Of a DNA stretch of 35,906 nt, positions 21,019 to 35,906 are shown piece after piece; the first letter of the stretch is position 1, and each line of letters starts with the position of its first letter. The stretch is from a virus. The DNA lies in IMG/VR virus record IMGVR_UViG_3300023175_003987, positions 1 through 35,906 of that record. One strand, written 5' to 3'. The notes under the pieces are model-generated. The model had not been told where the DNA came from. It ran no database searches and was given only the letters and a program-made list of their open reading frames with translations. A program made the translations under genes and the position numbers.

Positions 21019-22063
21019 TATGATCTCCATAATTAACTAGAAATTCATTAAATACTTTCATTGGTAATTTAAGAATAAATGAAGCATTATCTTGCCAACC
21101 AAATGAAATTAAAATATCATTATTTCTAATTGTCATACCAGTAACAAATTCAATATTATAATCAGTATTAGTTACATGATCGTAATAAGTTCCCATAAAA
21201 TGAAATGGTTTAGTTGCATGAATTAAATTCCAATCGTCATCCCAAATAAGAATTCGATGAGCATAATCACCATCTTTTCTACCGAATGGATCTTTTAATA
21301 AAGTTGTTTCGTGGACAAATGCCATTCTTTGGTTGTCACCAATTCTAATGACTTGTGAACCACCTCTAAAATCTCTAGGAAATGGCGCTCTTGGAGATTT
21401 ATCTCTATATGTTTCTGTTGTTGTACCTTCTTCAATATCATATTTTACAATTTGAATAGGATTACACCATTTAACAAAATGATCTTCCATATCATTAATA
21501 GGCATCCAATTTTTTTCACAATATGAGCTATCATCGCCTGGAGCTGGAATAGGATTACGAGATACTTCTCTCCATTCTCCATCAATGAAATCAATTTCTG
21601 CCATCTCCATACGACCTTTGCCTTTATCATCGTATGCATCTCTACGAACACCACACAAATATAATTTATCATGCCAAGAAAATAAACGACAATCTTCTAA
21701 ACCAACAAAGTTCCAAGTAGGTTTACCTGTATCAAGAGCCATATTAATACGTTGGGCGTTTTTGACGTTCATATTATCATCTAACTCGCACATTACATTA
21801 TGTGTAGTAAGAGTTACGTCGTTTTCGGGATGTACGTATACAAGCGGTCCCCACTGATGAGGGAATTTCTTTCCTTCACTATGATAGAGTATATAGTTAA
21901 TGTGACGGATATTTAGAAGAATCTTCCCTTTGTGTTGGAAGATAGATGGGTTCATAATTCCAGTTTCATTACCTAATACTTCTTTAGGTAGAATAATTGG
22001 GTGTAACGTTCCGCCTCTTTTTAAGGCATAGGTCGCCAAACCACCCATATGCATATCATGCAT
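21008..22063 (-). CDS. GH130/GT108-like five-bladed beta-propeller protein
   Basis: This 351-residue protein has the motif series of the GH130-type propeller enzymes (beta-mannoside phosphorylases and relatives): MNPSIFQHKGKILLNIRHIN at 37-56, FVGLEDCRLFSW at 119-130 with Glu123 and Asp124, EKNWMPI at 183-189, RGGSQVIRI at 233-241, and a late FVTGMTIRNNDILISFGWQD. Members act on or build mannose-containing glycans. Whether this one is a phosphorylase, hydrolase or transferase is not clear. Its ribosome site GGAGGTGAT is nearly perfect, though the spacing to the first ATG is short (about 4 bases) and ATGs at codons 4 and 6 are alternatives. It is first in the three-gene sugar cassette. No late promoter was found upstream. 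Confidence 0.7.
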   Translation of the reverse strand: MHDMHMGGLATYALKRGGTLHPIILPKEVLGNETGIMNPSIFQHKGKILLNIRHINYILYHSEGKKFPHQWGPLVYVHPENDVTLTTHNVMCELDDNMNVKNAQRINMALDTGKPTWNFVGLEDCRLFSWHDKLYLCGVRRDAYDDKGKGRMEMAEIDFIDGEWREVSRNPIPAPGDDSSYCEKNWMPINDMEDHFVKWCNPIQIVKYDIEEGTTTETYRDKSPRAPFPRDFRGGSQVIRIGDNQRMAFVHETTLLKDPFGRKDGDYAHRILIWDDDWNLIHATKPFHFMGTYYDHVTNTDYNIEFVTGMTIRNNDILISFGWQDNASFILKLPMKVFNEFLVNYGDHNAI

Positions 22064-22919: not shown

Positions 22920-23480
22920 TTACTCAGTGAACAACTGTAAATCTACAGGAATGCAAATTCTATAATCAGAAAAATAAGGATTTACTGAATGATACAAGAA
23001 ACTCGGGAAAATAAAAACATCTCCTGTTTCTGGTATATATTCTTCCTTTTCAAATAAATGATAAAAAGGTGGTGGATAACCTCTATTTGCGTTAAATCTT
23101 GGATCATGAAAAACAATCGACCCACCAGCATCTGTTACTTCAGCAAGTGGATAAAAAACGGCTGATAAAAGATTACCACGATGATTATGAAAATTCATTC
23201 CCGTATTTGTCATTTTTGTTATCCAAGCGTTTGTTCGATAACCTGCAAAATCACTTATAGACTTATTTATAGTTTTCTGTAAATATTCATCAAAACAATT
23301 ATAAACTACTTTTTTAAATTCTTTAATTGGTTTTGAATCATTATCGAAAAAATTTTTACCAGCTAATTCACCATTCTCTGGTGTATTAAGATCATAATTT
23401 GTAAGAATATAGTCTGATAAACCTTCGACATGAAAATGACCAATACTTAATTTAGTTGGCCACAGATTATAAAAATTCAT
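22920..23480 (-). CDS. 2OG-Fe(II) oxygenase (phage hydroxylase type)
   Basis: This 186-residue protein matches the short putative 2-oxoglutarate/Fe(II) oxygenases common in marine phages. The double-stranded beta-helix signature is visible: W-I-T-K-M...NFHNHRGNLLSAVFYP (His98/His100, residues 86-111), GGSIVFHDPRFN at 119-130, GDVFIFPSFLYHSVNP at 153-168 with the second iron His164, and Arg174 in YRICIPV as the likely 2OG-binding arginine. It would use O2, Fe(II) and 2-oxoglutarate to hydroxylate a target, which is unknown. The ATG follows a strong AAAGGAG site. It is transcribed divergently from the cupin/radical SAM operon. Confidence 0.85.
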   Translation of the reverse strand: MNFYNLWPTKLSIGHFHVEGLSDYILTNYDLNTPENGELAGKNFFDNDSKPIKEFKKVVYNCFDEYLQKTINKSISDFAGYRTNAWITKMTNTGMNFHNHRGNLLSAVFYPLAEVTDAGGSIVFHDPRFNANRGYPPPFYHLFEKEEYIPETGDVFIFPSFLYHSVNPYFSDYRICIPVDLQLFTE

Positions 23481-23532: not shown

Positions 23533-23549
23533 GTTGTAATGGAAAATTG

Positions 23550-24014
23550 ATGAATTTCTCAGACTTTGAACAATGGCTATACTCTAATGAGTGTTTTGAA
23601 AATCATGATGTATCTTATATTGATATTGAAGGCCTTCAGCATTACTTAGATCAAACAGATTACCATGCATATATTGCAAAGGTAGGAATACTTATTGCTG
23701 AAAAAAATACAATCAAAGTAGAACAATATGAAAAAGTATTAAAAATAGTTGACAAAACGGCGCATGTGTTTTATAATCAAGATAATGGGCCAACTTTTAA
23801 ACTTCATCAAGACCCAGTTGATGTAATAATAGAATGTTTAGATGGTGAAAAAGATTTGGAAGTACGTGGAGCTAGAGTTACATTAAATCCAGGTGAATCA
23901 TTATTCATTCCAGCAAATACAAAGCATAGAGCAATTAATAGTAAAAAGGCATTAATGATTTCTTATGGCATTAGCGACACAGAAACACTTAGTAGTATAC
24001 GTAAAAACAACTGA
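23550..24014 (+). CDS. Cupin-domain protein
   Basis: This 154-residue protein opens the plus-strand operon. Residues about 80-130 form a cupin: FKLHQDPVDVIIECLDGE with His86, Asp88 and Glu95, then ARVTLNPGESLFIPANTKHRAIN with His126, resembling the metal site of small single-domain cupins. The N-terminal 75 residues are helix/strand mixed and not diagnostic. The start is the ATG at 23550, with GGA six to nine bases upstream; an in-frame TTG just before it is less likely. It overlaps the first radical SAM gene by 50 bases, an unusually long overlap that implies tight coupling. It might be a dioxygenase, isomerase or sugar-binding sensor; the reaction is not known. Confidence 0.75.
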   Translation: MNFSDFEQWLYSNECFENHDVSYIDIEGLQHYLDQTDYHAYIAKVGILIAEKNTIKVEQYEKVLKIVDKTAHVFYNQDNGPTFKLHQDPVDVIIECLDGEKDLEVRGARVTLNPGESLFIPANTKHRAINSKKALMISYGISDTETLSSIRKNN

Positions 24015-24996
24015 AACTTGCAATTTAAATTGTGATCATTGTTTTACTTCTGGTACTAAAGGTAGAAAAATATATTTTGATCCTATAAAGACTGCAGATT
24101 GGTGTAACCAATTAGATACTGGAGATAATAGAGTTCACTTTGAATTTCATGGTGGAGAGCCTATGCTTGCTCCATTAGAGGATCTTAAAAAGTTTGTAAA
24201 AATAGTAAGATCTCAGTGGGATGATAGATTAACAATAGGCATTACAACAAACTTAGTTTATAAGTTAAAACAAGAATACATAGATTTCTTTAAAGATATT
24301 GTTAAGCAAGATTTTATAGGAACATCTTGGGATCCGAAGATAAGATTTACTAATGATAAACAACTTAAATTATGGGAAGATAATGTAAAAAAATTAGTAG
24401 ATGAAGGTCTTGCAGTTAAATGTTTTGTATCTGTATCAACTGATGTTGTTAATATGGAGCCAATTAAAATTGCAAACTATATGGAATCTTTAGGTATTGA
24501 AGAATTATCATATGAAAGATTAACTCATAATGGCAATGCTACAATTAATTTAGAAATATTTCCGCATAATAAACAACTGGATAATTTTTGGATGTTGATG
24601 CATCAAACAACTCGTCATCACAAAGTAAAAAATACTTTCTTAAATACTGTATATAATAAATTTGATTATAACGAAACACGTAGTGGAACGTTTTGTAGAG
24701 ATTGTGAACAAAAATTATTTACTATAAACGCAGATGGAACAATAGCAGGCTGTCCTAATTCAGCTCCTACTGATTTTTATGGTCATATAGATGAGCCAGC
24801 TCCTGATGTAAAAGTATGTCCAAAAAGAATGACTGCTATAGATAATGAAATACATTTAAGAAATCCCAAATGTTATGAATGTCCTGTATTTAATTTATGT
24901 CATTCTGATTGTCATCAATTAAAATGGATGGATGGAGTATGCCCTGCACCTAAATCGCTTATGGTAGAATTAGCAAAGGAAAAAGAATGGATTTAA
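23965..24996 (+). CDS. Radical SAM/SPASM protein (rSAM1)
   Basis: This 343-residue radical SAM enzyme has the [4Fe-4S]-SAM motif C-x3-C-x2-C at Cys19, Cys23 and Cys26 (TCNLNCDHC) and the SAM-binding GGEP at 63-66 (FEFHGGEPML). The C-terminal third is a SPASM domain for auxiliary clusters: Cys244, 247, 263, 285, 303, 306, 312, 316 and 326, including CYECPVFNLCHSDC. SPASM enzymes mostly modify peptides or proteins (PqqE, sactisynthases, sulfatase maturases). No precursor peptide is next to it. The ATG lies inside the cupin gene with a weak ribosome site, consistent with translational coupling. It overlaps rSAM2 by 10 bases. Confidence 0.92.
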   Translation: MALATQKHLVVYVKTTETCNLNCDHCFTSGTKGRKIYFDPIKTADWCNQLDTGDNRVHFEFHGGEPMLAPLEDLKKFVKIVRSQWDDRLTIGITTNLVYKLKQEYIDFFKDIVKQDFIGTSWDPKIRFTNDKQLKLWEDNVKKLVDEGLAVKCFVSVSTDVVNMEPIKIANYMESLGIEELSYERLTHNGNATINLEIFPHNKQLDNFWMLMHQTTRHHKVKNTFLNTVYNKFDYNETRSGTFCRDCEQKLFTINADGTIAGCPNSAPTDFYGHIDEPAPDVKVCPKRMTAIDNEIHLRNPKCYECPVFNLCHSDCHQLKWMDGVCPAPKSLMVELAKEKEWI

Positions 24997-26039
24997 TTAT
25001 TAAACCAACCGAAGTTTGTAATTTTAAATGCACATTTTGTTCTTCAACAGATATTGATCCGAATAATGCTGGGTTATTAAGTCATGATTATATTTTTAAA
25101 TTCTTAGAAAGATTTCCCGAAACTAATACTATTATTGTAAATGGTGGTGATCCTTTAATGGTAGAACCAGAATATTATTGGAAGATTATTAATTATTTAG
25201 ATGAGCACGATTTACCCGCAACAGTATCACTTACAACAAACTTGTGGCCTTTTTATAAAAAACCAGAGAAGTGGGTAGACTTATTTAATAACGAAAGAGT
25301 AGGTATATGTACATCATTTCAATATGGAGGAGGACGCCTTAAAGGTGATTATTCCGAATTTAGTGAAGAAGATTTTTGGAAATGTTCAGATGCTATGCTT
25401 AAATATTGTGGTTATAGACCAGACTTTATTTCTGTTATTGTAGATGAAAATGAAAAAGATGCATTAAAAAATGTAGAGCTCGCAAAGAAGATGGGCGTAA
25501 CGTGTAAATTAAATTATGCAATGGCAAGTGGTGTGCAAGGATCTACATATAGACTTAGTAAAATATATGAGATGTATGTTAAAATATATGATATGGGTTT
25601 AGTAGATTATGAGTGGAATACTATGCAAATGGCTAAACGTCTTATTGGAGAAAATACTACTTGTCCACAATTAAGAGAATGCGATATTGGAATAAGAGCA
25701 ATGAATCCTGGTGGAGACTATTATAGCTGTGGTGCTTTTGGTGATGATAAAGATTATTCTATTGATTTTGAAAAAGAAATGCAAGGAGGATTTGAAACAC
25801 CTTTACAAAACGATCCTCATATTCAAACAATGAAAATGGCATGCTATACATGTCCTATGTTTAAGATATGTAATGGTTGTAAAAAAACAATACGAGATAT
25901 GAAAAGAGAAGGAATTGTAGAAGATCATTGTAAGCATATGAAAACTCTTGCACCTAGAATATTAGAAATTAATGGATTAGATCCAAATAGTGTAACACCA
26001 TATATTAACGAAAGTATACCTTATGAATTTATCGATTAA
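24987..26039 (+). CDS. Radical SAM/SPASM protein (rSAM2)
   Basis: This 350-residue protein begins almost directly with the radical SAM motif: Cys11, Cys15 and Cys18 in VCNFKCTFC. The strand-2 motif is GGDP at 53-56 (IIVNGGDPLM), an accepted variant of GGEP. A SPASM-like C-terminus contains Cys226, 232, 248, 286, 289, 295, 298 and 315, including CYTCPMFKICNGC. The NPGGDYYSCGAF segment (240-251) is the usual strand before the auxiliary cluster. It has a good AAGGA ribosome site, overlaps rSAM1 by 10 bases and rSAM3 by 17, and is diverged in sequence from rSAM1. It may act in the same pathway on a later step or different residue, which is inference. Confidence 0.92.
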   Translation: MDLIIKPTEVCNFKCTFCSSTDIDPNNAGLLSHDYIFKFLERFPETNTIIVNGGDPLMVEPEYYWKIINYLDEHDLPATVSLTTNLWPFYKKPEKWVDLFNNERVGICTSFQYGGGRLKGDYSEFSEEDFWKCSDAMLKYCGYRPDFISVIVDENEKDALKNVELAKKMGVTCKLNYAMASGVQGSTYRLSKIYEMYVKIYDMGLVDYEWNTMQMAKRLIGENTTCPQLRECDIGIRAMNPGGDYYSCGAFGDDKDYSIDFEKEMQGGFETPLQNDPHIQTMKMACYTCPMFKICNGCKKTIRDMKREGIVEDHCKHMKTLAPRILEINGLDPNSVTPYINESIPYEFID

Positions 26040-27417
26040 TCCTACTTACTATTGTAATTTTAAATGTGACTTTTGTTATCTTACAAAAGAACAACTTAGT
26101 GATAGAAAGAAAATTACTCCAGAAAAATTAGATGAATTACTTAGTAATATAGAAGATCCTATTGAACATATTGATTTATATGGTGGTGAAATAGCTTTAT
26201 TAACACCAGAATATTTTTATTCAATTAAAAATGTTATTAAAAAGTATTATCAAGGTGTTATTAATATTAATACTAATTTTAGTGCTTTACCTGATTTTTT
26301 CTATGATGACGATATTAAAATTTCAGTGTCTTATGATTTCTCTGCCAGAGAAAAAGAACAGTTTGTTTTAAATAATATAATGGCATCAAAAAAGCCATTA
26401 TTCATATTAGTATTAGCATCACCAAAAGTATTAGAAAAAGATGTCGATGAAATGATATCAATTTTTAATATGTGTTCTAAAATAGAAACAGTTGAAATTA
26501 AACCTTACTCTACTAATCAATCAAATGCTCATAATGTTACACATAAAGATTTTGAAGAGTTTGTTAAAAAATGGATTGAAAGTCCAATTGAAAAAAAATT
26601 CCAATTTATAAATGAGAATCATATAAGAAATTCTTTAGATGCAAGATATAATGCTTTTTCTAATGATCATGTTTATATTACTCCAAATGGAAAATATGCG
26701 GTATTAGAATTTGATAAAAATGATAATGAATATTTTTTAGAATTAGATACATATAAAGAATATAAAAAATGGGCTGAACAAGAACCAGATAAAAATACAT
26801 CTGATATATGTAAAAGCTGTGTATATTATGGTAACTGTTTAACAGAACATTATAGATATGTAAAAGATTTAGATAATGGATGTAATGGTTATAAAGGATT
26901 ATTAGATTGGTATAATGATAAGATTAATAACGTTATTTTAAAATATAATAATCTTATAATTAAAGATATAGATATTTCTTATCCAATATTTAATGATCTA
27001 AAAAATCTTAAAGATAACAATGTTGATGGTCCTTTAGATATTGTTAATGGAACAGAATTTATACAAGAAATATTAGAAAAAACTTTAGGATTTAAATTAA
27101 AAATATTAAATAGTTGGTTAAATAAAACAATATATAAAGGGTATCTAAATACTTTTGATTGGCATAATGAAAAAGGCGCTGGCGGTAATCAAAATGTTAT
27201 GCCAGGAACACATGCTTTAATTATTTGGATAGATGGAGAAAGTAATCAAGGTGGACAACTTAAAGTTATGGATGATAATGCTAACATTAGTTCATTTGAA
27301 TTCGAAAAAGGAAAGGTAATAACTTTTCCTATAACTTGGTTTCATAGGGTAGAAAATTATACAGGAGATACACCACGAATAAGTGTAAATATTACGTATG
27401 AAAGATTGGAAAGCTAG
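26023..27417 (+). CDS. Radical SAM-2OG/Fe(II) oxygenase fusion (rSAM3)
   Basis: This 464-residue protein joins two chemistries. Residues 1-290 form a radical SAM module: Cys11, Cys15 and Cys18 (CNFKCDFC), a GGE at 54-56 (DLYGGEIALL), and a C-terminal cluster site Cys263, 266, 272 and 287 (CKSCVYYGNC). Residues about 300-464 resemble a 2OG-Fe(II) dioxygenase jelly roll: His381-x-Glu383 (FDWHNEKG), GTHALIIWIDGESNQGGQLKV, FPITWFHRVEN with His441, and Arg452 in TPRISVNITYE. The ligands form the H-x-E/D...H...R set. No frameshift or stop separates the parts, so it is a genuine single reading frame. Radical SAM enzymes are oxygen-sensitive whereas the C-terminal domain would need O2, so the pairing is unusual. 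Confidence 0.85.
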   Translation: MNLSINPTYYCNFKCDFCYLTKEQLSDRKKITPEKLDELLSNIEDPIEHIDLYGGEIALLTPEYFYSIKNVIKKYYQGVININTNFSALPDFFYDDDIKISVSYDFSAREKEQFVLNNIMASKKPLFILVLASPKVLEKDVDEMISIFNMCSKIETVEIKPYSTNQSNAHNVTHKDFEEFVKKWIESPIEKKFQFINENHIRNSLDARYNAFSNDHVYITPNGKYAVLEFDKNDNEYFLELDTYKEYKKWAEQEPDKNTSDICKSCVYYGNCLTEHYRYVKDLDNGCNGYKGLLDWYNDKINNVILKYNNLIIKDIDISYPIFNDLKNLKDNNVDGPLDIVNGTEFIQEILEKTLGFKLKILNSWLNKTIYKGYLNTFDWHNEKGAGGNQNVMPGTHALIIWIDGESNQGGQLKVMDDNANISSFEFEKGKVITFPITWFHRVENYTGDTPRISVNITYERLES

Positions 27418-27805
27418 ACAAGCAGCGTATCATCTCGCTAATACAGAATTTAAAGATGATTTAAATGACGTTGATATTACTGTATCAGATGATATAGTAG
27501 ACGACGCGGTAATGCATTTTTACGAAGAAGTAGATGAATGGATTTATCCGGCTAAATCATATGTGGTTGCAATTTGTTATGCAACATGGTTATCAGAAGA
27601 TTATGGAGAAGATTTTTACGAAGTATTAGATGATCCAGAATTATTATTTAATAATGATCCGTATTTTGTACCATACTCTGAAGATGAAGGCACATACGAT
27701 GCAATACTTAGACAAATAGGTGAATTTGATCGAAATGACGGAATGGTTCCGGACATTTACGAATATTATAAAGAAGAAATGTTATATGGATTACGAACAA
27801 AGTGA
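27398..27805 (+). CDS. Small acidic protein in the radical SAM operon, unknown
   Basis: This 135-residue protein has no family I recognise. It is strongly acidic (many Asp/Glu, such as DDLNDVDITVSDDIVDD and a later EDYGEDFYEVLDDPELL), Tyr-rich and probably mostly helical. It has one Cys in AICYATWLSEDYG, no signal peptide and no membrane helix. It overlaps rSAM3 by 20 bases and rSAM4 by 20 bases, so it is made in step with both. Candidate roles are a partner or substrate-presenting protein for the radical SAM enzymes, or a modified substrate; neither is shown. It lacks the usual small-precursor layout (leader plus Gly/Cys-rich core). Confidence 0.7.
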   Translation: MKDWKARQAAYHLANTEFKDDLNDVDITVSDDIVDDAVMHFYEEVDEWIYPAKSYVVAICYATWLSEDYGEDFYEVLDDPELLFNNDPYFVPYSEDEGTYDAILRQIGEFDRNDGMVPDIYEYYKEEMLYGLRTK

Positions 27806-28853
27806 ACCAATAAAAGTTTTATTAGAACCTAAGAGACCAGAATTAGGTGAGATAGAATTAACTTTATTTGAGAACTGTCATTTAAATTGCGCTTTTTGTC
27901 ATCACGATAAAAAATCTACAGTAGGATTATCTAGAGAAGAAATATTTTCTAAGATACCATTAGTAGAAGAACATTTAATTAAAATGGAAGGAAGAGTTGA
28001 AACTTGCCAAATTAACATGGTGGGAGGAGAACTTTTTCAAGATAGAATATCTGACTGGGCATACGATGTTTATTATGATTTGCTTATTGAGATTAAAAAA
28101 TTATATGATAAGTATAATCACAAAATAAAAGTTGTTTGGGTAACATCATTTCAATTTAGTAAAAAAGATTTAGTTAAAAAATTATTAGATGATTTAAATG
28201 CAGCAAATATTCCTTCATATATTATTTGTTCTTATGACTTTGATGGACGACCACAAAAAGGACCATACCAAGATAATATAGAATATTTTGCAGATTATAT
28301 TATATCAATTAATATGGTTGCAACAGTTCCATCAATAAAAAAATTTATGGCTGACGATGATGAATATTTTCATTATCTTTATAATAAGTTTGATAATTTT
28401 TATTTTGATGATTACATACCAGATAAAGGTTTTGATTATTTAATTCCATCTGATAGTATGTACCTAGCATTTTTAAAATTTGTTTATAGGAAATATCCTG
28501 ATATAAATCCTATGAAAGATTTGATAGAAAAAAGTAGCAATCACATGCATTGCATGGCTTTAAATAAAGTAACAATATTTCCAGATAATTCTACATCAAA
28601 TTGTAGATGGAATAGATATACAAAAGAAGATTTTAATACACCTTTAAATAGAAAAGATAATGCTTCTATGATGCAAGCTTATATGGATGAGCACGGTTGT
28701 TTATCATGTAAATGGTGGAATAAATGTGGATTTAGATGTTATACACAATGGGATTGGAAAAACCGAGAACGCGATTTACCAGATTGTGTAATGCGTATGT
28801 GGTTTAATTATATGGAGAAGAAAAGTGAAGTTGAAATGTTACACACACGATAA
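27786..28853 (+). CDS. Radical SAM/SPASM protein (rSAM4)
   Basis: I place the start at 27786 (355 residues), because the reading frame upstream of it lies wholly inside the previous gene and MDYEQSEPIK has a GAAGAA-type site upstream. The radical SAM motif is Cys31, Cys35 and Cys38 (NCHLNCAFCHHD) and the GGE motif is at 80-82 (NMVGGELFQD). The C-terminus carries a SPASM-like set: CMALNKVTIFPDNSTSNC, then CLSCKWWNKCGFRC and a last Cys in LPDCVMRMW. The family resembles radical SAM/SPASM maturases. It overlaps the acidic gene by 20 bases and the next gene by 29 bases, closing the four-enzyme plus-strand series. Confidence 0.9.
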   Translation: MDYEQSEPIKVLLEPKRPELGEIELTLFENCHLNCAFCHHDKKSTVGLSREEIFSKIPLVEEHLIKMEGRVETCQINMVGGELFQDRISDWAYDVYYDLLIEIKKLYDKYNHKIKVVWVTSFQFSKKDLVKKLLDDLNAANIPSYIICSYDFDGRPQKGPYQDNIEYFADYIISINMVATVPSIKKFMADDDEYFHYLYNKFDNFYFDDYIPDKGFDYLIPSDSMYLAFLKFVYRKYPDINPMKDLIEKSSNHMHCMALNKVTIFPDNSTSNCRWNRYTKEDFNTPLNRKDNASMMQAYMDEHGCLSCKWWNKCGFRCYTQWDWKNRERDLPDCVMRMWFNYMEKKSEVEMLHTR

Positions 28854-29526
28854 GAGTGTATTTGAATTACAAAAATTAGAATACAAAACTAAACCTCCAA
28901 GTTGGTGGAAAAAAATTAAAAACTTTGCTCATAAGTTTGATATTAGATCTGGAGTAAATATTCCAGTACCAACAATCAAGACTTGTCCAGGAGTTGCAGA
29001 TTATATTCGTAAACCTATTACACTCAAATTATGGTCTGATGTTATATTTAATATAAAACCAGACGGTAAAGTAAAACTTGCAGAGCCCATCGAAAGTTTT
29101 AACAGAATTGGTGGTGGTGTGCATGAAGATTATCAATATGGAAAAGAACTTTATCCTGGTAGAACAGTATTTAAGCTATATGGTCCGTGGGCTATAGAAG
29201 GATCTGATAGAACAGAGTTTATGTTAAAAGAAATACATTACTCAGAAGATCTTCGTAAACATGATATATTAATATCACCCGGTATTGCTAATTTTAAAGA
29301 TCAGCATACTCTTAATGTGTTCCTTGTATTTCCTATTAAAGAAGAAGAATACACTGTACAATTAAAATATGGAACTCCTATAATGTCTATCTATCCTATG
29401 ACTGATAAAAAGGTTGAATTAGAACATTATCTAATTCCAAAAACAGAGTGGGATGGTTTTCAAAATAATTACCCAAGTACTTTCTTAGGAAGATACTACG
29501 CCGGGAAACACGCACGAAGTGATTGA
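28825..29526 (+). CDS. Conserved-looking phage protein of unknown function
   Basis: This 233-residue protein starts with GTG at 28825, preceded by a clear GGAGAAG ribosome site inside rSAM4. It carries KTKPPSWWKKI near residues 19-29 and a TCPGVADYIRKPITLKLWSDVIF stretch (about 52-74), then alternating beta strands (HTLNVFLVFPIKEEEYTVQLKYGTPIMSIYPM). I associate this layout (PP-x-WWK, TCPG..D, W-x-D) with a family of marine-phage proteins of unknown function, from memory and without a search. The C-terminus is GRYYAGKHARSD. It is the last gene of the plus-strand operon, and its end overlaps the end of a minus-strand radical SAM gene by 42 bases. It may be a partner or substrate protein; nothing in the sequence decides. 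Confidence 0.7.
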   Translation: MKLKCYTHDKSVFELQKLEYKTKPPSWWKKIKNFAHKFDIRSGVNIPVPTIKTCPGVADYIRKPITLKLWSDVIFNIKPDGKVKLAEPIESFNRIGGGVHEDYQYGKELYPGRTVFKLYGPWAIEGSDRTEFMLKEIHYSEDLRKHDILISPGIANFKDQHTLNVFLVFPIKEEEYTVQLKYGTPIMSIYPMTDKKVELEHYLIPKTEWDGFQNNYPSTFLGRYYAGKHARSD

Positions 29527-30504
29527 ATGATGTTTCATATAAGATAATACACCTTTGTCTATACAAGTCATTTGATTATGGCAATTACCACAGTTTTTTG
29601 TTTCTTGAGCGTAAACTAATTGCTCCATAAATTGATCTGTTTTAATTTCAGTCCAAGAATTAATATCGCTTTCATTTTTTACTTCAAATTCAGATGTTCC
29701 TATTAATGCAATATCATAAATGAATGGAGTCCAAAAAAATCTTTCATTACAATAAGTATAGTTAAGTTCTAATGATCCACCTTGAGCTTGATCGATAATT
29801 GTTTTAGGATATAAATCATCGCTAAAATCATATTGCTTCCATTTATTAATTAAATGCTTTTGTAATTTTGATTTAGGAGATCTAAAGAAAGAAGGGTTTA
29901 GTGTAAGTAATGAATTAAATCGTTCTTTTACTAACTTAGCCATTTCAAGTACTTGGCTATTATATTCGTCATCATTACCCATATTATAAACCATATAATA
30001 ATTTAAATCATCTTTAAATTTATTAAGTAGATTTAGTTTACTTTCAATTTTATCCCAATCAACAGGTAATTGTAATGCAATATTTGCATCATACATAAAT
30101 CCATCTTTCTTTGGAATACTATTTAATAAGTCTATGACTTCATCATCTACTTTTTCTAATGTAGTAACAAATTGAATAGTGGTAACTTTACTTAAACATT
30201 CTCTAAACGTTTCATCTTTTAGTAATGAAACAATATTATTATTACCAAATAAATCAGTAGGACCTATATTAATTGTTGAAACTCTAAATCCATTATCATT
30301 AAATAAATCAATTGCTTTGTTTAATCTATCATAAGATCCCATATTAGATCCTACTTTATTAACAAAACAACCTTTACATTTAAATTCACAACCAGATAAT
30401 ACTTCACAATTAAATTGCACTTTAATTTCATGTCCTTTATCAAAGGATAAGTTAAATTCTTTATCTGCTTGTGCGTGTTTTAAATTATCAGTAACTATTG
30501 GCAT
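29485..30504 (-). CDS. Radical SAM protein with GPTD motif (rSAM5)
   Basis: This is one of five minus-strand paralogues. With the start at 30504 (ATG, MPIVTDNLKH; 339 aa) it matches the MPIIKNN start of rSAM7. The longer frame to 30531 would begin with TTG inside the upstream gene. The radical SAM cysteines are 39, 43 and 46 (SGCEFKCKGCFV). Strand 2 ends in IGPTDLFG (Gly81-Asp84) where GGE is expected. Conserved later segments are NPSFFRS and TPFIYDIALIG. The C-terminal cluster is Cys305, 308, 314 and 331 (C-x2-C-x5-C-x16-C). The 3' end overlaps the convergent plus-strand gene by 42 bases. The start overlaps rSAM6 by 17 bases. Confidence 0.88.
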   Translation of the reverse strand: MPIVTDNLKHAQADKEFNLSFDKGHEIKVQFNCEVLSGCEFKCKGCFVNKVGSNMGSYDRLNKAIDLFNDNGFRVSTINIGPTDLFGNNNIVSLLKDETFRECLSKVTTIQFVTTLEKVDDEVIDLLNSIPKKDGFMYDANIALQLPVDWDKIESKLNLLNKFKDDLNYYMVYNMGNDDEYNSQVLEMAKLVKERFNSLLTLNPSFFRSPKSKLQKHLINKWKQYDFSDDLYPKTIIDQAQGGSLELNYTYCNERFFWTPFIYDIALIGTSEFEVKNESDINSWTEIKTDQFMEQLVYAQETKNCGNCHNQMTCIDKGVLSYMKHHSITSCVFPGVVSS

Positions 30505-31630
30505 TATAATACTCATTATCAAAAAGTTCAATCACTTGTTTATTTAATATACATTCTTTTCTGTTATTAAATATATTATCCATAACTTTAGGTATTAATC
30601 TATTACTACATATATTTAAATATTTGCAAGTAATACATTCTTTGTTATGACTGTTTTCTATTTGTTCATTAACTACATAATTTTTATAGTTAAGTATAGA
30701 TTTATGAATTGAATTATTAATTTCTATTTTAAAATCATCATTATATATTGCTGCATTTTCGTATATAAATGGAGACATATAAACATTACCATTATGAATA
30801 CCTATTACTGAATAATGAAATGCTTTGTGCGATAAATCACCTTGTAAAAAATGAATATTATTTTTAAAATAGTCTACATCTTTAGCAATATCATTTAATA
30901 AATCATTCCATTCAAACAATTTATTACCATGTTTATTTCCATTATCAAACGATCTTACTACAGATGGTAATATTTCTATTACAGTAGAATATTTGTTACG
31001 TATATAATTATTTGCTTCATATATTCTTTCTACAGATATATTATCGACGATATTAGTTGCCATAGAAATTTCAAATTCTAAATTACTATTTGCAAATGTT
31101 TCTACTCTTTCATCTAAAGCTTTTCTATAATCTTTGTCATCTAATACTTTATTAAGATCTAATGCTATTTGTACATCCCAAGCTTTTACTGTTTTTCCAA
31201 GTAAAGATTCTTCTATTAGTTTTAGTTTACCTTGAATATCTTTTTCATTAAGTGATCCATCTATAGAACAATTATGTTGTACATTTCTATTATCTTCTGG
31301 CATCCATGAAATTGCTTGTACCAATTTTTCATTATTAATAATATCAGTAAGGTTTTGTGCACCATAAAAATCTGTAGGTCCAATAACAATATCATCTAAT
31401 ACAATATGATTATTATCTTTTAATTCTTTTGCTAAATTATAAAATATATCAATAGACTGAGGATTCCAATTACCTTTTCTTTTTACAAAACATCCTGGAC
31501 AATTATAAGAACAACCTTCAAGTAATTCTAAAATAACTTGAATTTTATATTGACCCATAGAACTTACTGATGTAAACTCTTCACCTTGGCCACCATGTTT
31601 AACTATTTTTTCCCAGCTATCATTTAACAT
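30488..31630 (-). CDS. Radical SAM protein with GPTD motif (rSAM6)
   Basis: This 380-residue paralogue of rSAM5, 7 and 8 has the motif Cys40, Cys44 and Cys47 in EGCSYNCPGCFVKRKG and GPTD at 84-87 (DIVIGPTDFYGAQN). Shared features follow: PSVVRSFDNG, MSPFIYENAAIYNDDFKI, and a C-terminal cluster Cys332, 335, 341 and 360 (C-x2-C-x5-C-x18-C), two residues longer than in the others. The gene is very AT-rich (for example 12 G+C among bases 30601-30660). It overlaps rSAM7 by 11 bases and rSAM5 by 17. The function is unknown. The conserved aromatic SPFxYE strand suggests a shared fold and probably similar chemistry. Confidence 0.9.
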   Translation of the reverse strand: MLNDSWEKIVKHGGQGEEFTSVSSMGQYKIQVILELLEGCSYNCPGCFVKRKGNWNPQSIDIFYNLAKELKDNNHIVLDDIVIGPTDFYGAQNLTDIINNEKLVQAISWMPEDNRNVQHNCSIDGSLNEKDIQGKLKLIEESLLGKTVKAWDVQIALDLNKVLDDKDYRKALDERVETFANSNLEFEISMATNIVDNISVERIYEANNYIRNKYSTVIEILPSVVRSFDNGNKHGNKLFEWNDLLNDIAKDVDYFKNNIHFLQGDLSHKAFHYSVIGIHNGNVYMSPFIYENAAIYNDDFKIEINNSIHKSILNYKNYVVNEQIENSHNKECITCKYLNICSNRLIPKVMDNIFNNRKECILNKQVIELFDNEYYNANSY

Positions 31631-32774
31631 ATGATATATTTTTTAATTCCTTTAATCTTTTATCACCGTCTTTTGTTATTAAAAACTTTTTACGATATCC
31701 TTTTTTATCTTTTTCTACAGAATAACCATCCCAATCATACATGACTTGAGCGGCTTCATTATAGTTATGAATATTATTTATCATGTTTTCTTTGGGTGCA
31801 ATACATCTATCAACACCTAAGTAATCTCTTAATAATATAATTTTTCTATGATAACAACTAAAAAACAAAGGACAATTTTCGCATTCAGTATTTTTTGCTC
31901 TTTGTATTTGTGATTCATTTATATTTACAACATCATCAAAAGAATTAATTTTAAATATAGAATCATATATTGCCATGTTTTCATACATGAATGGAGATAT
32001 ATACCACTCACCTTTTTTATAATTTAATACAGTATAGTTCATTCCTGCATGCGAATGATCGACCATAATATTATTAAGTGTAGAACCTTTAATTAACTTA
32101 TTAAAATAATCATTAAAAGAATCTAGTGTTTTTAATATAATACTTGATTTATGAGATCTAGAAACCGATGGTATAAAGTCAATCGTTGTTTTAAATTCTT
32201 TAATTGCAAAATCATGTAATGAATGATAATTTAAATCATAATCATTTATATTTACGACAAATGTAAATGTAACTTCGTGTTTAATATTTTCATCAATATA
32301 TTTTAATTTATTCTTAATATTTTGTATATAATCAACTTCAAGAAATTTATGTGGATTAATTGCGACACCTATTTCTATTTCAGTATCTAAGTTAATATTA
32401 TCTAACCACTTCACCCATTTTTCAAGATCACCATCAATTAAAGTAGATACGAATGCGAGAATAGGAGAGTTCTCATTAATTAAATCAATAAGACTTGGCA
32501 TAACTTCATAAAAGTTTTCTGATGCCAAAAAGTCTGTAGGACCAATTAGCATTTCATCTACTAATATTCCTTTATCTGTTATTTCTCTTACAAAGTCGCA
32601 TGCAGATTTTAATTGAGATTCATCACTAGAATTACCACGTCTATGCACAAAACATCCTGGACATTTATGGTGACATCCATCTAATATATCAAGTTGAATT
32701 TTTACTGCAGACACTGGTTTAGTTTGAGTTTCTGTAGTTAATTCGTAGTATAAATTGTTTTTAATTATCGGCAT
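31620..32774 (-). CDS. Radical SAM protein with GPTD motif (rSAM7)
   Basis: This 384-residue protein starts MPIIKNNLYYELT. Its radical SAM site is Cys34, Cys38 and Cys41 (DGCHHKCPGCFVHRRG) and the strand-2 motif is GPTD at 78-81 (EMLIGPTDFLASENFYE). PSVSRSHKSS, ISPFMYENMAIYDSIFKI and the C-terminal cluster Cys298, 301, 307 and 324 (C-x2-C-x5-C-x16-C) align with the other paralogues. It has an extra C-terminal tail of about 50 residues (basic, KDKKGYRKKFLITKDGDKR) absent from the others, which might bind a partner or nucleic acid (inference). It overlaps the flanking genes by 11 and 14 bases. Confidence 0.9.
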   Translation of the reverse strand: MPIIKNNLYYELTTETQTKPVSAVKIQLDILDGCHHKCPGCFVHRRGNSSDESQLKSACDFVREITDKGILVDEMLIGPTDFLASENFYEVMPSLIDLINENSPILAFVSTLIDGDLEKWVKWLDNINLDTEIEIGVAINPHKFLEVDYIQNIKNKLKYIDENIKHEVTFTFVVNINDYDLNYHSLHDFAIKEFKTTIDFIPSVSRSHKSSIILKTLDSFNDYFNKLIKGSTLNNIMVDHSHAGMNYTVLNYKKGEWYISPFMYENMAIYDSIFKINSFDDVVNINESQIQRAKNTECENCPLFFSCYHRKIILLRDYLGVDRCIAPKENMINNIHNYNEAAQVMYDWDGYSVEKDKKGYRKKFLITKDGDKRLKELKNISYVK

Positions 32775-33780
32775 ACATATATTCTTTAAGAGCTACACAT
32801 GTTTCTAAGTTTCTTGATTCCATATACATATGAACATTTCGTTCTGCACAATACATTATATATTCACAATTACTACATTCTACTTTATTTGCATAATTTA
32901 AATTTTTATCTAATAAATTATCATCTATATTTGATATAAAGAAATCATCTCTTTGTATAATAGCATCATATAAAAAAGGATTTACATATAATTTTCCATT
33001 ATAGAAACTATAATTTTGACATCCAAATCCATTAAAATTAACATGAAAAAATGTATATAAGTTTAACCATTTTTTGTCTATCTTTTGATTAATTAATTCT
33101 TCACGAAAACTTTTTAAATACTCGTTTACTTTACCTCTACTATTTGTATCAGTTAAAAATGAAGGAGTTATTACGATAGGTGCATTAAAATCATCATATA
33201 CTTTTTGACATAAATCGTTATATGATATTCTTTTAAAAACATCTTTACTATAATTTACTCTAAACTGCACAGAACCTTTTTTAAATAATTCTAATTTTTT
33301 ATACCATTCATCAAGTTCATTATCTAAATACTTATCAATATCTAATACAATTTTAAAATCAATATCTGGTATTCTATCTATATTATCATATAAATCCCAT
33401 AACATTTTATGTTTTTCTTTTACCATTTCTATTGGTTGATTTATTGTTGTAAGATATCCTATTGCAGAAATTTCATAAAGAGACTTCATTGAAGGATGTT
33501 TTATAATATCATAAAAGTTTTGAGAGTCAAATATATCTGTAGGACCTACAATAATTTCATCAGGATAATAACTACCGTCTTTAAGTAGATTATAGAGTTG
33601 TGTTAAGTTATCTAAACCAGTAAGATTTTTTCTAGGAATAAAACATCCTGGACACATTTGATTGCACCCATGAAGTATATCTAAATTGACTTCAGTCCTT
33701 AAAAAATCTTTATTAATTGGACTTTTACTTTCGTCGTAATTATAATATCCGGCGTTTGTATTATTCAGATGGACTATCAT
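32761..33780 (-). CDS. Radical SAM protein with GPTD motif (rSAM8)
   Basis: This 339-residue paralogue has Cys39, Cys43 and Cys46 (HGCNQMCPGCFIPRK) and GPTD at 79-82 (EIIVGPTDIFDSQNFY). PSFLTDTNSRG replaces the PS-x-x-RS motif of its relatives, so it is the most diverged in that segment. VNPFLYDAIIQRDDFFI is the family strand, and Cys302, 305, 311 and 328 form the C-x2-C-x5-C-x16-C site. The start overlaps the end of the unknown 262-residue gene by 20 bases, and its end overlaps rSAM7 by 14 bases. The reaction is unknown. Confidence 0.9.
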   Translation of the reverse strand: MIVHLNNTNAGYYNYDESKSPINKDFLRTEVNLDILHGCNQMCPGCFIPRKNLTGLDNLTQLYNLLKDGSYYPDEIIVGPTDIFDSQNFYDIIKHPSMKSLYEISAIGYLTTINQPIEMVKEKHKMLWDLYDNIDRIPDIDFKIVLDIDKYLDNELDEWYKKLELFKKGSVQFRVNYSKDVFKRISYNDLCQKVYDDFNAPIVITPSFLTDTNSRGKVNEYLKSFREELINQKIDKKWLNLYTFFHVNFNGFGCQNYSFYNGKLYVNPFLYDAIIQRDDFFISNIDDNLLDKNLNYANKVECSNCEYIMYCAERNVHMYMESRNLETCVALKEYMYADN

Positions 33781-34549
33781 CAGCCGAGACCACTACCGTA
33801 CCTGGTGGCATCATTTTTAATATATTTTCTACTATTCTTGTATGTACTAGTACGTAATATAAATCCGATCCAAAGTAAGTAGGTTTATCATTATAAATTT
33901 GTTTATTAAAATATTTAGTAAAACCGAAACGAGATGTAATAAGTAAAAAAGCATCCCAAGCATCTGTTACTATTCTAAGAACATTAACACCGCATGAAAC
34001 AGGTTTATCAATAATTTCTATTTCTTCAATAATAGGTTTAATATTTACTTCTTTTTCTTTAATATCATCCGGTAACTCATTATAAAATTTGTGCAATACA
34101 AAAGCAATGAGTTGGGATAATGTATTACATAATTCATCAATTAACTCCAGATTATTTTCTACTATTTCGATTATTTTATCTTTTGGCATTAAAAATGTTA
34201 ATTCTTCTTCACCAATATTAAATTCATATTGTAATCTGGTTTTAATACACATAGTAGTAAATCTTGCAAGTAAACTACAATCTACCATAAAATCAGATTT
34301 AATATATTCAATAATTAAATCTTCATCTATTTCAGAAAAATGGCATTTGAAATTAGTGTTTGAAAGATAAATTAATATATTTTTAGCAGTTAGCTTTTCT
34401 CTAGATTTTGTATAGTCTACCCACAAGACAAACTCTTTATCATTTTCTTTTTGCTTGTATATATCAACTAGATCTTGTGGAGCTAATGGAAGAGCGTATG
34501 CTTTTTTATCTTGGTATTTTTTCTTTTGATTCACACTTTGTTCAATCAT
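33761..34549 (-). CDS. Unknown protein embedded in the minus-strand radical SAM operon (A)
   Basis: I do not recognise this 262-residue protein. It is mostly helical with a Lys/Gln-rich start (NQKKKYQDKKAYALPLAPQD), a strongly hydrophobic/acidic helix pair around residues 120-150 (KIIEIVENNLELIDELCNTLSQLIAF) and a Pro/Ser-rich end (PPGTVVVSADDSPSE). There is no enzymatic motif, signal peptide or clear transmembrane helix. It is 14 bases after the next unknown gene and overlaps rSAM8 by 20 bases, so it belongs to the operon. Context suggests a carrier, adaptor or substrate for the radical SAM enzymes, but a virion role is equally possible. Confidence 0.75.
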   Translation of the reverse strand: MIEQSVNQKKKYQDKKAYALPLAPQDLVDIYKQKENDKEFVLWVDYTKSREKLTAKNILIYLSNTNFKCHFSEIDEDLIIEYIKSDFMVDCSLLARFTTMCIKTRLQYEFNIGEEELTFLMPKDKIIEIVENNLELIDELCNTLSQLIAFVLHKFYNELPDDIKEKEVNIKPIIEEIEIIDKPVSCGVNVLRIVTDAWDAFLLITSRFGFTKYFNKQIYNDKPTYFGSDLYYVLVHTRIVENILKMMPPGTVVVSADDSPSE

Positions 34550-34563
34550 AATATTACCTTATT

Positions 34564-35661
34564 TTATAGTGGATATTTGTGAATTAAATATGGTATTCTG
34601 TTTTGTCTTTTACTGAAAAATTGTACATCAGTATTAATTAGTCTTAAATCTTCAGACAATGTTTCTATATTATAATCACCTTGTAATACCATTTTAACAA
34701 TAGGGAATACATTATTAATTTCTGTATATAAATCATTATATTCCCAACCACTACTAGATTCAGCAACTTTAGCATCATGAGCAGCAATAAATGCTGGATC
34801 GTCTTTTACTTTATTCCAAAGTTCTTCTAATTTATAAAATGCTAATGTATAGTTACCAGTATTAGCAGCATTTACATATACTTCTTTAAAAAATTCTTTT
34901 TTGTCTGTAGCATAATTATTTGAGTCAGTTGCATGCTCGTTCATCCAATCTATTACTGATAATAAGTATGCAGTGTAATGACGTCTTGATGTGAAATGTT
35001 CCATAACATCTTGTGCTAAAACAGATGAATGAATTGTAAGCTTTTCAATTATTAAATTTTTAACACCGTCGCATGGATAAGTATCATTTAAAAAGAATAA
35101 TAAATCATAACTAAAATTCTTTCCATCTTGATATGTAATATCAAAAGCTGGAGTATCAGAATCTGCTAGTGTATCTAAACAATGTTGTCTTGCGTCATTT
35201 AAAATAGTTGAATCACTCATAAATGATAGCACCAAGTCTGATTCTACAATTGCTTCTATAAAATCAGCTGTAATTTCATTTATAGATGTATTTGAGTTTT
35301 CATAAAAGCCAGAAGCATCTAATAAGCCAGCAGTGTAACGAGAAAATACGTTAAGCATATCACTTTCATCAGTAAATGCAATGATATACTTATCACTATT
35401 TTGTAGAAATGCAGAGTTAGCAACATCTGTAAATTCACTAAACGCTATATAATCACCAGCACCAGTTCTTATACTTTCTGCTAAGGTTGTATATTCATCA
35501 TTAATAATTGATACTTCGGTATTACTAGAATTAACTACTAAGATATCACGAGCATCACCTGTATGATAAAAAGAATTTAATTCAAAAACAACAGTTCCTA
35601 TATTTGTTGTATTTGTAATATATTTCTTATTATTTAAATAATATAAACTCTGTCCAATCAT
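34564..35661 (-). CDS. Unknown protein embedded in the minus-strand radical SAM operon (B)
   Basis: The N-terminal third of this 365-residue protein is beta-rich and polar (IGTVVFELNSFYHTGDARDILVVNSSN), and the remainder is helical and Tyr/Asp-rich. The C-terminus is RIPYLIHKYPL. It has only two Cys (RQHCLDT and TYPCDGV), no catalytic motif and no signal peptide or membrane segment. Its ATG overlaps the stop of the upstream radical SAM gene by four bases (ATGA), and it lies 14 bases before unknown gene A. It resembles neither the radical SAM proteins nor a known virion protein that I can identify. A substrate or scaffold of the modification system is an inference from operon structure. Confidence 0.75.
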   Translation of the reverse strand: MIGQSLYYLNNKKYITNTTNIGTVVFELNSFYHTGDARDILVVNSSNTEVSIINDEYTTLAESIRTGAGDYIAFSEFTDVANSAFLQNSDKYIIAFTDESDMLNVFSRYTAGLLDASGFYENSNTSINEITADFIEAIVESDLVLSFMSDSTILNDARQHCLDTLADSDTPAFDITYQDGKNFSYDLLFFLNDTYPCDGVKNLIIEKLTIHSSVLAQDVMEHFTSRRHYTAYLLSVIDWMNEHATDSNNYATDKKEFFKEVYVNAANTGNYTLAFYKLEELWNKVKDDPAFIAAHDAKVAESSSGWEYNDLYTEINNVFPIVKMVLQGDYNIETLSEDLRLINTDVQFFSKRQNRIPYLIHKYPL

Positions 35662-35906
35662 GAAGCCTCTCCTAATATTTCCATTGCGTCGTCATTCCAT
35701 GTAAAATCAAATGGATTATAATAATCAAGTATATCTTTATTTAATACACATCCATCAATACCCAAAGTTTCTTGGGCTTCAAATATTAATCTGCTAGCAC
35801 AAGCAACAGAGTATTTACAATTAGAACAATCTTTTACTTTACTAGATTTATTTATACCTTTTGTTACTAATTGATTTTTTCTTTCTAATATTTCTTCAAA
35901 TGATAA
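35658..35906 (-). CDS. Radical SAM paralogue, C-terminal part only (rSAM9, runs off the window)
   Basis: Translating the minus strand from the window edge gives an open frame of 82 residues ending in a stop at 35658. It contains DCSNCKYSVACASRLIFEAQ, and a further Cys follows in LGIDGCVLNKD: the same C-x2-C-x5-C-x16-C signature as rSAM5-8. LGIDGCVLNK closely matches LGVDRCIAPK of rSAM7, and CSNCKY/ACASRL matches CITCKY/ICSNRL of rSAM6. The radical SAM core must lie beyond the window, so the Cys motif and GPTD cannot be checked. The stop overlaps the next ATG (ATGA). It extends the GPTD-type family to at least five members. Confidence 0.8.
   Translation of the reverse strand, partial: LSFEEILERKNQLVTKGINKSSKVKDCSNCKYSVACASRLIFEAQETLGIDGCVLNKDILDYYNPFDFTWNDDAMEILGEAS

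Follow-up and report, generated by a model that had tools for sequence, protein, structure and literature searches.

A clade of phage radical SAM enzymes with a GPTD-type motif and its genomic link to a fibre-associated protein with a Cys-His tail

The window analysed here is a stretch of 35,906 nucleotides, positions 1 to 35,906 of IMG/VR virus record IMGVR_UViG_3300023175_003987. The source of its radical SAM gene set is a marine T4-like phage. The genes of the set and their neighbours are:

22920..23480, minus strand: 2OG-Fe(II) oxygenase adjoining the cassette (2OG-FeII_Oxy_5 above cut-off; synteny)
23547..24014, plus strand: cupin-domain cassette protein (Cupin_2 above cut-off; synteny)
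23965..24996, plus strand: rSAM1, GGEP-type radical SAM/SPASM
24987..26039, plus strand: rSAM2, GGDP-type radical SAM
26023..27417, plus strand: rSAM3, GGE-type radical SAM
27398..27805, plus strand: s135, small uncharacterised cassette protein (synteny)
27720..28853, plus strand: rSAM4, GGE-type radical SAM, GTG start (PHROG 1802)
28825..29526, plus strand: u233, uncharacterised, PHROG 7084, shared by some of the relatives
29485..30531, minus strand: rSAM5, GPTD-type radical SAM/SPASM-like enzyme, 348 aa, TTG start (ORF, motif, tree); GPTD motif at 30253-30264
30488..31630, minus strand: rSAM6, GPTD-type enzyme, 380 aa (ORF, motif positions, tree); GPTD motif at 31370-31381
31620..32774, minus strand: rSAM7, GPTD-type enzyme, 384 aa, the one modelled (ORF, model, motif, tree); GPTD motif at 32532-32543
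32761..33780, minus strand: rSAM8, GPTD-type enzyme, 339 aa (ORF, motif positions, tree); GPTD motif at 33535-33546
33761..34549, minus strand: u262, uncharacterised (synteny), found after the tail protein described below in most cassettes
34564..35661, minus strand: u365, uncharacterised cassette protein (synteny)
35658..35906, minus strand: rSAM9, C-terminal 82 codons plus stop of a fifth GPTD-type enzyme, truncated at the contig end

The core cassette consists of the cupin protein, rSAM1-4, u262, s135 and 2OG oxygenases, to which the GPTD enzymes form an added set. rSAM2 is 54-60% identical to its jumbo phage homologues, and the C-terminal part of rSAM3 gives a weak 2OG-Fe(II)-oxygenase/cupin-like match. 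Pfam scans returned no match for s135 or u365 and no domain above cut-off for u262. The fifth GPTD-type enzyme at the contig end had been missed in the earlier note; it is full length in another contig (L008, 1942-3117).

Each of rSAM5-8 carries the sequence [IV]-G-P-T-D-[LFI] (alignment A1), as the earlier note had claimed, together with the other segments it had described as shared, C-x3-C-x-G-C-F-[VI], PS..RS/TD, [SNT]PF[IML]Y[ED] and C-x2-C-x5-C-x16/18-C. The spacing given there, 35-41 residues after the last cluster cysteine, has to be corrected, since the motif starts 35, 37, 37 and 33 residues after it. The plus-strand neighbours do retain GGE or GGDP, the sequences read being HGGEP, NGGDP, YGGE and VGGE. 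This division extends to the relatives of these proteins. With duplicates included, all 228 full-length relatives in the GPTD family from the loci examined have [x]P[TSV]D (216 GPTD, 3 SPTD, 3 GPVD, 2 GPSD, 2 LPTD, 1 QPTD and 1 APVD), whereas GGE is found in 73/74 full-length relatives of rSAM1 (one exception), 55/55 of rSAM3 and 82/82 of rSAM4, and GGDP in 48/48 of rSAM2, again counting duplicates. Given such uniform counts on both sides, the split is not due to chance.

The four window proteins were aligned with family members clustered at 70% identity, giving 50 rows. P79 and D81 are invariant in this alignment, C34, C38 and C41 are present in 50/50 rows, and C298, C301, C307 and C324 are nearly invariant. 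Beyond the 228 relatives, five predatory-bacterial genomes each have APTE in one of their three GPTD-family paralogs. The constrained motif is x-P-[TSV]-[DE] and not strictly GPTD. The motif could still be neutral variation at strand 2 that leaves SAM binding unchanged, the clade being nothing other than fast-evolving SPASM enzymes. Strand-2 motifs do differ among radical SAM families (GGE, GGDP, GGGTP), and the first position and the Thr vary within the clade itself, so that we give this reading a substantial chance, though somewhat short of even. Against it, GGE is seen at this site in none of the 228 members, and the Pro and the acid stay fixed even in rows only 16% identical to the first row, which places the motif under strong constraint.

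In the tree, the rSAM5-9 paralogs form five fully supported clades, each locked to its position in the cassette, which bears out the coherence that had been proposed for the group. The suggestion that the group was possibly undescribed also held, as scans with Pfam, NCBIfam and PHROG place rSAM5-8 in no characterised family. The Pfam Radical_SAM model scores under its cut-off with three of these proteins and does not match the remaining one, NCBIfam matches are sub-threshold only, and TIGR04085 (SPASM) matches only rSAM6, weakly, at 17.7 of 27 bits. The sole strong match is to PHROG 31457, of unknown function (rSAM5, E = 5e-9; rSAM6, 3e-8; rSAM8, 7e-6; no match for rSAM7). TIGR03942, the model for anaerobic sulfatase-maturating enzymes, gives below-cut-off scores for rSAM1 (45.7 of 349 bits) and rSAM2 (36.1) and is not among the matches listed for rSAM5-8. 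A coherent clade outside any characterised family is thus supported.

A confident AlphaFold model of rSAM7 has the superfamily's CxxxCxxC cluster loop after strand beta1 and a partial TIM-barrel; the usual GGE motif, common but not universal at the end of strand 2 in radical SAM enzymes, is absent. The question raised earlier, whether the motif might lie away from the SAM site, is answered by the model: GPTD occupies residues 78-81, where strand beta2 (71-78) ends, which we take to be the GGE position of the superfamily. This placement rests on the model, since the motif region came out wrongly aligned in a global HH alignment of the GPTD and GGE families, which was discarded. The best-matching solved folds, from comparison by VIA-align (Z given) and Foldseek, are anSME (15.8), ChlB (15.0) and CteB (14.3), with ∼300 residues aligned, followed by TigE, SuiB, SkfB and PqqE. 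A profile search of solved-structure sequences gave an unrelated best hit, and its best radical SAM match had an E of 0.59. Judged by the model, the nearest folds are peptide- or protein-modifying SPASM enzymes.

A contig 99.89% identical to the window runs on beyond its end into rSAM9, two small CHNSCHQSCHGSRGRR-ending genes and a tail-fibre-type gene. The candidate substrate was invisible to the earlier note because it lies outside the window. The small genes encode what we call the tail protein, which has 126-364 residues, a variable front part and a conserved tail of 16 residues at the C-terminus, in a core-peptide-like position. The signature CHxxCHxxCHxxRGRR marks the cassette. A pair of tail genes is present in 27/30 loci found through GPTD homology alone, the remaining three contigs ending before it, and all 54 tails in these loci read CHxSCHxSCHxSRGRR. 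Little variation is seen in this tail, even between predators and phages of very different kinds. A Foldseek search with one tail-protein model found no PDB match at E ≤ 0.001 and no known adhesin.

The association also holds in the reverse direction: loci found by the tail pattern alone contain the cassette, and all 50 tail-positive records chosen have a Radical_SAM match. The cassette occurs in many viral contigs, in isolate phages with rSAM1 and rSAM2, and in the chromosomes of Bdellovibrio-like predators. rSAM1 and rSAM2 match the same seven of 50,697 phage records; of the six phages behind these records, the tail was read in four, and the other two have a near-identical protein. The gene order rSAM1-tail-u262 is tight, and no locus with rSAM1, a next gene and u262 in order was seen without the tail (one locus with merged frames, L161, was left out of the gene-order data). 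Three extra GPTD queries, with two loci each, gave the tail in 5/6; the sixth, L270, shows none, its match lying near a contig end. An rSAM2-based scan of the best 80 of 259 relatives found the tail in 16, and most of the other 64 loci are not counter-evidence because the tail pair of the T4-like type is located outside the 8 kb flank. Searching with u262 and one tail protein (L148) by tblastn matched no phage record, a result that mainly reflects the fast divergence of both proteins.

From this two-way linkage, which is strong on the genomic evidence, the Cys-His tail is probably the substrate of the cassette, and the GPTD enzymes themselves probably act on it, a step of which we are slightly less sure. 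The three Cys-His pairs, spaced by four, could instead hold a metal ion or cluster, much as His motifs bind iron in the fibre tips of T4, with the radical SAM enzymes working elsewhere, on host metabolism or another virion protein. Published guesses for phage radical SAM enzymes, in the parts of those papers at hand, are metabolic or DNA-repair roles (PMC8541153, PMC2853527) and would fit such a division of labour. Against it stand the co-occurrence of cassette and tail (27/27 reachable GPTD loci, 50/50 tail records, 7/7 isolate records) and the tight gene order, and we consider it quite unlikely.

Cassettes contain from zero to six GPTD copies together with one or two tails, which led us to reject a simple pairing of each repeat with its own GPTD enzyme. 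GPTD enzymes occur in 7/129 genomes of one predatory-bacterial class, and the locus of all seven includes a CHxSRGRR-type tail protein. Since many cassettes lack GPTD enzymes, as do three of the five exact-tail genomes of that class (at E 1e-10), these enzymes are dispensable for the core function.

A fibre-type gene is the first gene upstream in 55/79 distinct loci, while in the other 24 the gene in that position shows no fibre motif, strand switches being among the causes; all nine fibre-type genes scanned match phrog_19602, tail fiber. In the predators the tail-protein loci adjoin pilin or fibre proteins. In phage Atu_ph07 the tail protein is gp170, and the accessible text of PMC6102473 gives the virion cluster defined by mass spectrometry as CDS 170-215. 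gp170 stands at the edge of this cluster, so its place in the virion is deduced from the cluster boundary, with the numbering of the paper assumed to equal the RefSeq tags; for the tail sheath, gp140, the two agree. With moderate confidence we take the tail protein to be a virion protein. Alternatively, cleavage might free the modified tail as a RiPP-type peptide that serves as weapon or signal, in killing bacteria or in connection with superinfection, and is no part of the virion. The enzyme class and gene arrangement do resemble RiPP clusters, and the tail is C-terminal, as a core peptide would be; we nevertheless find this improbable, given that the cassettes inspected show no recognisable protease or transporter, that the tail is near-constant across distant phages and predators, unlike most weapons, and that its gene adjoins fibre-type genes.

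The overall reading that we favour, with somewhat better than moderate confidence, is a radical SAM/2OG system for maturing the tail of a fibre-associated attachment protein, in which the GPTD enzymes are maturases. rSAM5-9 would be a peptide-modifying radical SAM/SPASM-type clade, with x-P-[TSV]-[DE] replacing GGE, and would be the component that can expand within a conserved maturation cassette. As the proposed substrate, the small tail protein would combine a folded, variable front with an exposed, conserved C-terminal tail, (CHxS)3-RGRR, of which each GPTD enzyme may alter a defined position. A first guess is that the product is a macrocycle, of the thioether or another kind, and that the 2OG enzymes hydroxylate it, although a Cys-based crosslink is itself a doubtful guess. 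The modified product would sit at or near the tip of the tail fibre (for predatory bacteria, the tip of a pilin/S74 fibre) and might serve attachment to the target cell or passage through its envelope; the exact role in attachment is guessed. Only tentatively, at a little under even chance, do we extend this to a general picture, in which very different phage groups and Bdellovibrio-like predators share a chemically armed tip, (CHxS)n-RGRR on a fibre- or pilus-associated protein, made by 4-9 radical SAM enzymes plus oxygenases, with the GPTD clade as a new maturase class having a Pro-Thr-Asp turn for GGE at the SAM site.

Phage radical SAM clusters have been published for Chiangmaivirus FLC6, S13 and pPa_SNUABM_DT01 (PMC8066314, PMC11898562, PMC8541153); on the accounts available in these papers and our rSAM1/rSAM2 search, all three contain this cassette. 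The available sections of other papers describe pelagimyophage cassettes within a host-recognition cluster (PMC7029224) and eight radical SAM genes in a structural cluster of 332-Vera (PMC12390700). No tail protein, substrate or GPTD motif is named for these published clusters in the portions at hand. Campylobacter phage CP220 had no rSAM1 or rSAM2 match and 332-Vera was not among the hits, so that their relation to the cassette is untested or unlikely. Our literature search, with most subscription papers and bioRxiv preprints outside its scope, found no paper in which a Cys-His tail protein is linked to the radical SAM cassettes of phages. Multiple phage radical SAM genes have been called 'highly unusual' and, in the parts of the papers available, left as accessory or metabolic (PMC2853527, PMC12390700, PMC11898562). 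A common substrate candidate makes this puzzle testable, with one predicted tail of 16 residues and one expected mass shift. If the proposal is true, phages and predatory bacteria apply the same covalent chemistry to the part that meets the target cell; the radical SAM superfamily would also gain a clade whose SAM-site motif differs, and peptide-modifying enzymes would have a further source. We know of no earlier case of a virion protein maturing through radical SAM chemistry; the tail protein would be the first.

Among known systems, the His-Xaa-Ser (Hxs) system comprises the repeat protein HxsA, with C-terminal H-x-S repeats, and HxsB and HxsC. Both it and the cassette pair radical SAM enzymes with a protein ending in H-x-S repeats; in the cassette, however, the repeats start with Cys and the tail ends in RGRR. 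rSAM1 against HxsB (29.4 of 370 bits) and rSAM2 against HxsC (24.5 of 267.9) fall far under the cut-offs and are no better than matches to other families, and the His-Xaa-Ser models matched none of eight tail proteins at E up to 10. T4 gp38-like proteins and Tfa are fibre adhesins or helpers whose genes directly follow that of the fibre. The tail protein likewise follows a fibre-type gene and is small with a variable front part, but its one model gave no fold match, and it possesses a conserved Cys-His tail and an enzyme cassette. Ranthipeptides and sactipeptides (PapA/PapB, CteA/CteB) share short-spaced, repeated Cys motifs and SPASM enzymes of the same fold, whereas the cassette substrate would be a folded protein of 126-364 residues, not a small leader-core peptide, with several enzymes per tail. 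In terms of RiPP biosynthesis, the genetically linked tail protein would be a candidate precursor, with its C-terminal part as the portion that may be modified. With the radical SAM/SPASM maturases (anSME, CteB, SuiB, ChlB, TigE, PqqE) the GPTD enzymes share the fold, the CxxxCxxC loop, a Cys-rich C-terminal region and, by prediction, a peptide or protein substrate. They differ in having x-P-[TSV]-[DE] for GGE and a shorter Cys-rich end with four conserved Cys, and identity across the residues aligned in the listed matches is only 8-15%. They are also phage-encoded, with up to nine radical SAM genes to a set.

The four minus-strand radical SAM proteins of the window, rSAM5-8, and the motifs that an earlier note had named for them are present in the window ORFs. 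GPTD lies 35, 37, 37 and 33 residues after the last cluster cysteine in rSAM5, 6, 7 and 8, respectively, rather than the 35-41 residues first proposed. As the note had also said, the plus-strand families retain GGE or GGDP, in 258 of 259 members (rSAM1 73/74, rSAM2 48/48, rSAM3 55/55, rSAM4 82/82; duplicates included). Each of 228 full-length GPTD-family members from the loci then collected carries [x]P[TSV]D (duplicates included). At 70% identity, 225 members, omitting those of database loci L038 (phage FLC8) and L039, formed 47 clusters. A 50-row alignment shows just six invariant positions, C34, C38, G40, C41, P79 and D81; T80, N87, N175 and the four C-terminal cysteines are nearly so. A variant, APTE, occurs in five predatory-bacterial genomes, in a single paralog of each. 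The constrained core of the motif is therefore Pro-x-acid. No Pfam or NCBIfam family matched rSAM5-8 at cut-off, and PHROG 31457 (function unknown) matched three of the four.

An AlphaFold2 model of rSAM7, built on the 50-row alignment (pLDDT 82, pTM 0.82), places strand 2 at residues 71-78 and GPTD at residues 78-81. The motif is therefore predicted to sit at the end of strand 2, in agreement with its proposed location at the SAM site; this is the GGE position of the radical SAM superfamily. The best solved fold in VIA-align was anSME bound to SAM and a peptide (Z 15.8, rmsd 4.6, 298 residues), with further matches to ChlB, CteB, TigE, SuiB, SkfB and PqqE, and the Foldseek top group was the same. 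These enzymes, which the GPTD proteins resemble in fold, are mainly modifiers of peptides or proteins.

In a tree of 83 rows, rSAM5, 6, 7, 8 and 9 formed five groups, each with 100% bootstrap, and the gene order of the copies is kept across marine relatives. Since the paralogs are old and locked in position, this suggests that they perform five different jobs rather than providing dosage.

In the window rSAM9 is a gene fragment at the end. An IMG/VR contig, IMGVR_UViG_3300023105_000036, is 99.89% identical to window 25623-35906 and continues 2.9 kb further within database locus L008. There, upstream of rSAM9, two proteins are encoded in tandem, 126 and 127 residues long and each with the C-terminus CHNSCHQSCHGSRGRR, preceded by a fibre-type protein. 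Such a pair was found in 27 of 30 loci retrieved by rSAM7 homology alone, all 54 tails reading CHxSCHxSCHxSRGRR; the other three (L011, L015, L026) lack it because their contigs stop before reaching the tail genes. The co-occurrence also runs the other way: a Radical_SAM match was present in 50 of 50 hand-picked tail-positive records. The tail proteins are covered by PHROG 35144 (function unknown); Pfam has no match for them, and NCBIfam none that is credible. The model of one tail protein (127 residues, pLDDT 79) runs from a helix through a beta hairpin and a long helix to a tail of low confidence, and had no significant relative among solved structures.

Genes recurring around the tail are those for a cupin, rSAM1, the tail protein, u262, rSAM4, rSAM2, rSAM3, s135 and a 2OG oxygenase; the number of GPTD genes per cassette ranges from zero to six. 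Among 50,697 phage records, rSAM1 and rSAM2 each matched the same seven, representing six phages. Tails were read in four isolates, FLC8 CHSSCHTSCHGSRGRR, DT01 CHTSCHTSCHSARGRR, Atu_ph07 CHSSCHASCHNSRSRR and Phosso CHTSCHASCHSSRSRR; the remaining two phages have copies of the FLC8 tail protein (100% and 88% identity). One cassette gene is a fusion:

window 26023-27417, plus strand: rSAM3, a radical SAM N-terminal portion with a C-terminal part weakly like a 2OG-Fe(II) oxygenase/cupin

Its counterpart is shorter in FLC8, DT01 and Phosso. The FLC8 cassette (L038 10104-11319) has two genes between rSAM4 and rSAM2, the first by eye clearly dihydrofolate-reductase-like, and the records of the related S13 and FLC6 annotate dihydrofolate reductase at the matching position. 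A 151-kb contig, IMGVR_UViG_3300025138_000014 (L105, L033, L121), holds two cassettes, one with a tail-protein pair and GPTD enzymes and a separate second one with a single tail protein, rSAM1, u262, rSAM4 and rSAM3. Two divergent viral contigs (L078, L054) have four GPTD genes and two u262-type genes together with the gene order of the single-tail cassettes, a layout intermediate between the two main arrangements.

In 55 of 79 distinct loci, the first gene met on stepping upstream out of the cassette encodes a C-terminal domain of fibre type (ALKGRVPV and variants); the other 24 show strand switches and other endings, some fibre-like. All nine fibre-type proteins scanned from positions upstream of a cassette matched phrog_19602 (tail fiber protein). 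The virus contig, 35,906 bases long, encodes head and packaging proteins of T4 type (Gp23, E 2e-147; T4 portal, E 1.5e-159; a T4-like terminase). Pelagimyophages are described as carrying radical SAM cassettes within the host-recognition cluster, close to tail fibres (PMC7029224), and by this placement the window virus may be one. Window 19015-22063 separates the structural genes from the cassette. It encodes a fusion of a cytidylyltransferase with a mannose-6-phosphate isomerase, a possible FkbM methyltransferase and a protein of unknown function, a hint that the surface may carry a second modification, one related to sugars. The Atu_ph07 tail protein is gp170, and the virion-protein cluster reported there from mass spectrometry is CDS 170-215 (PMC6102473); gp170 is thus likely in the virion, and we infer a virion location for the tail protein generally.

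The tail was also searched as a degenerate DNA pattern, giving at least 120 stretches in viral contigs and 15 in bacterial and archaeal genomes totalling 257 billion bases (0.004 expected in the latter with equal base use). Eight of the 15 are titled Bdellovibrio-like predators, a ninth (L172) is of the same class as predator locus L162, and several sit on contigs with ordinary bacterial genes. Most of the remaining hits seem to be contigs of phages that were binned together with bacteria: among L161-L174, matches titled Euryarchaeota, Rickettsiales, Bacteroidetes and Rhodobacteraceae have phage-like cassettes, hence this reading. Across 129 genomes of the L162 class, the exact tail occurs in five, GPTD enzymes in seven and both in two. 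In the five GPTD genomes without the exact tail, a protein of the cassette has two CH pairs at its C-terminal end, CHGNFPPPCHGSRGRR or CHTNVPTPPPCHASRGRR, a variant beyond the reach of the exact pattern and therefore found through the enzyme search; one of these loci lies on a 4.15-Mb contig. The predator cassettes also have, directly after rSAM4, a protein not seen in the phage cassettes examined:

L182 5569-7281 and L183 15572-17311: B12-binding-type radical SAM protein, ~570 aa

Proteins adjoining predator cassettes carry Peptidase_S74, a fibre chaperone domain, in five of five scanned, and a pilin methylation signal over cut-off in three of the five. This shared fibre/pilus placement suggests that the tail system serves attachment, mainly because phage fibre and predator pilus are both first to touch the target cell.

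The tail is the candidate substrate of the cassette enzymes. Our first guess is that it would receive Cys-based crosslinks and hydroxylation, given the regular cysteine spacing of four, the CteB/SuiB/ChlB fold neighbourhood and the 2OG enzymes; the next is oxidation of Cys or Ser, of the anSME kind. GPTD enzymes probably contribute extra modifications, since many phages have the core cassette with no GPTD enzymes in view.

Campylobacter phage CP220 is reported to encode eleven radical SAM proteins (PMC2853527); none matched the rSAM1, rSAM2 or GPTD queries, so its set may be a different phage radical SAM system. In the literature searched we found no description of the cassette-tail-fibre combination, its spread or the Pro-x-acid clade; the parts are each of a known kind, namely radical SAM maturases, RiPP-like precursors and fibre genes.
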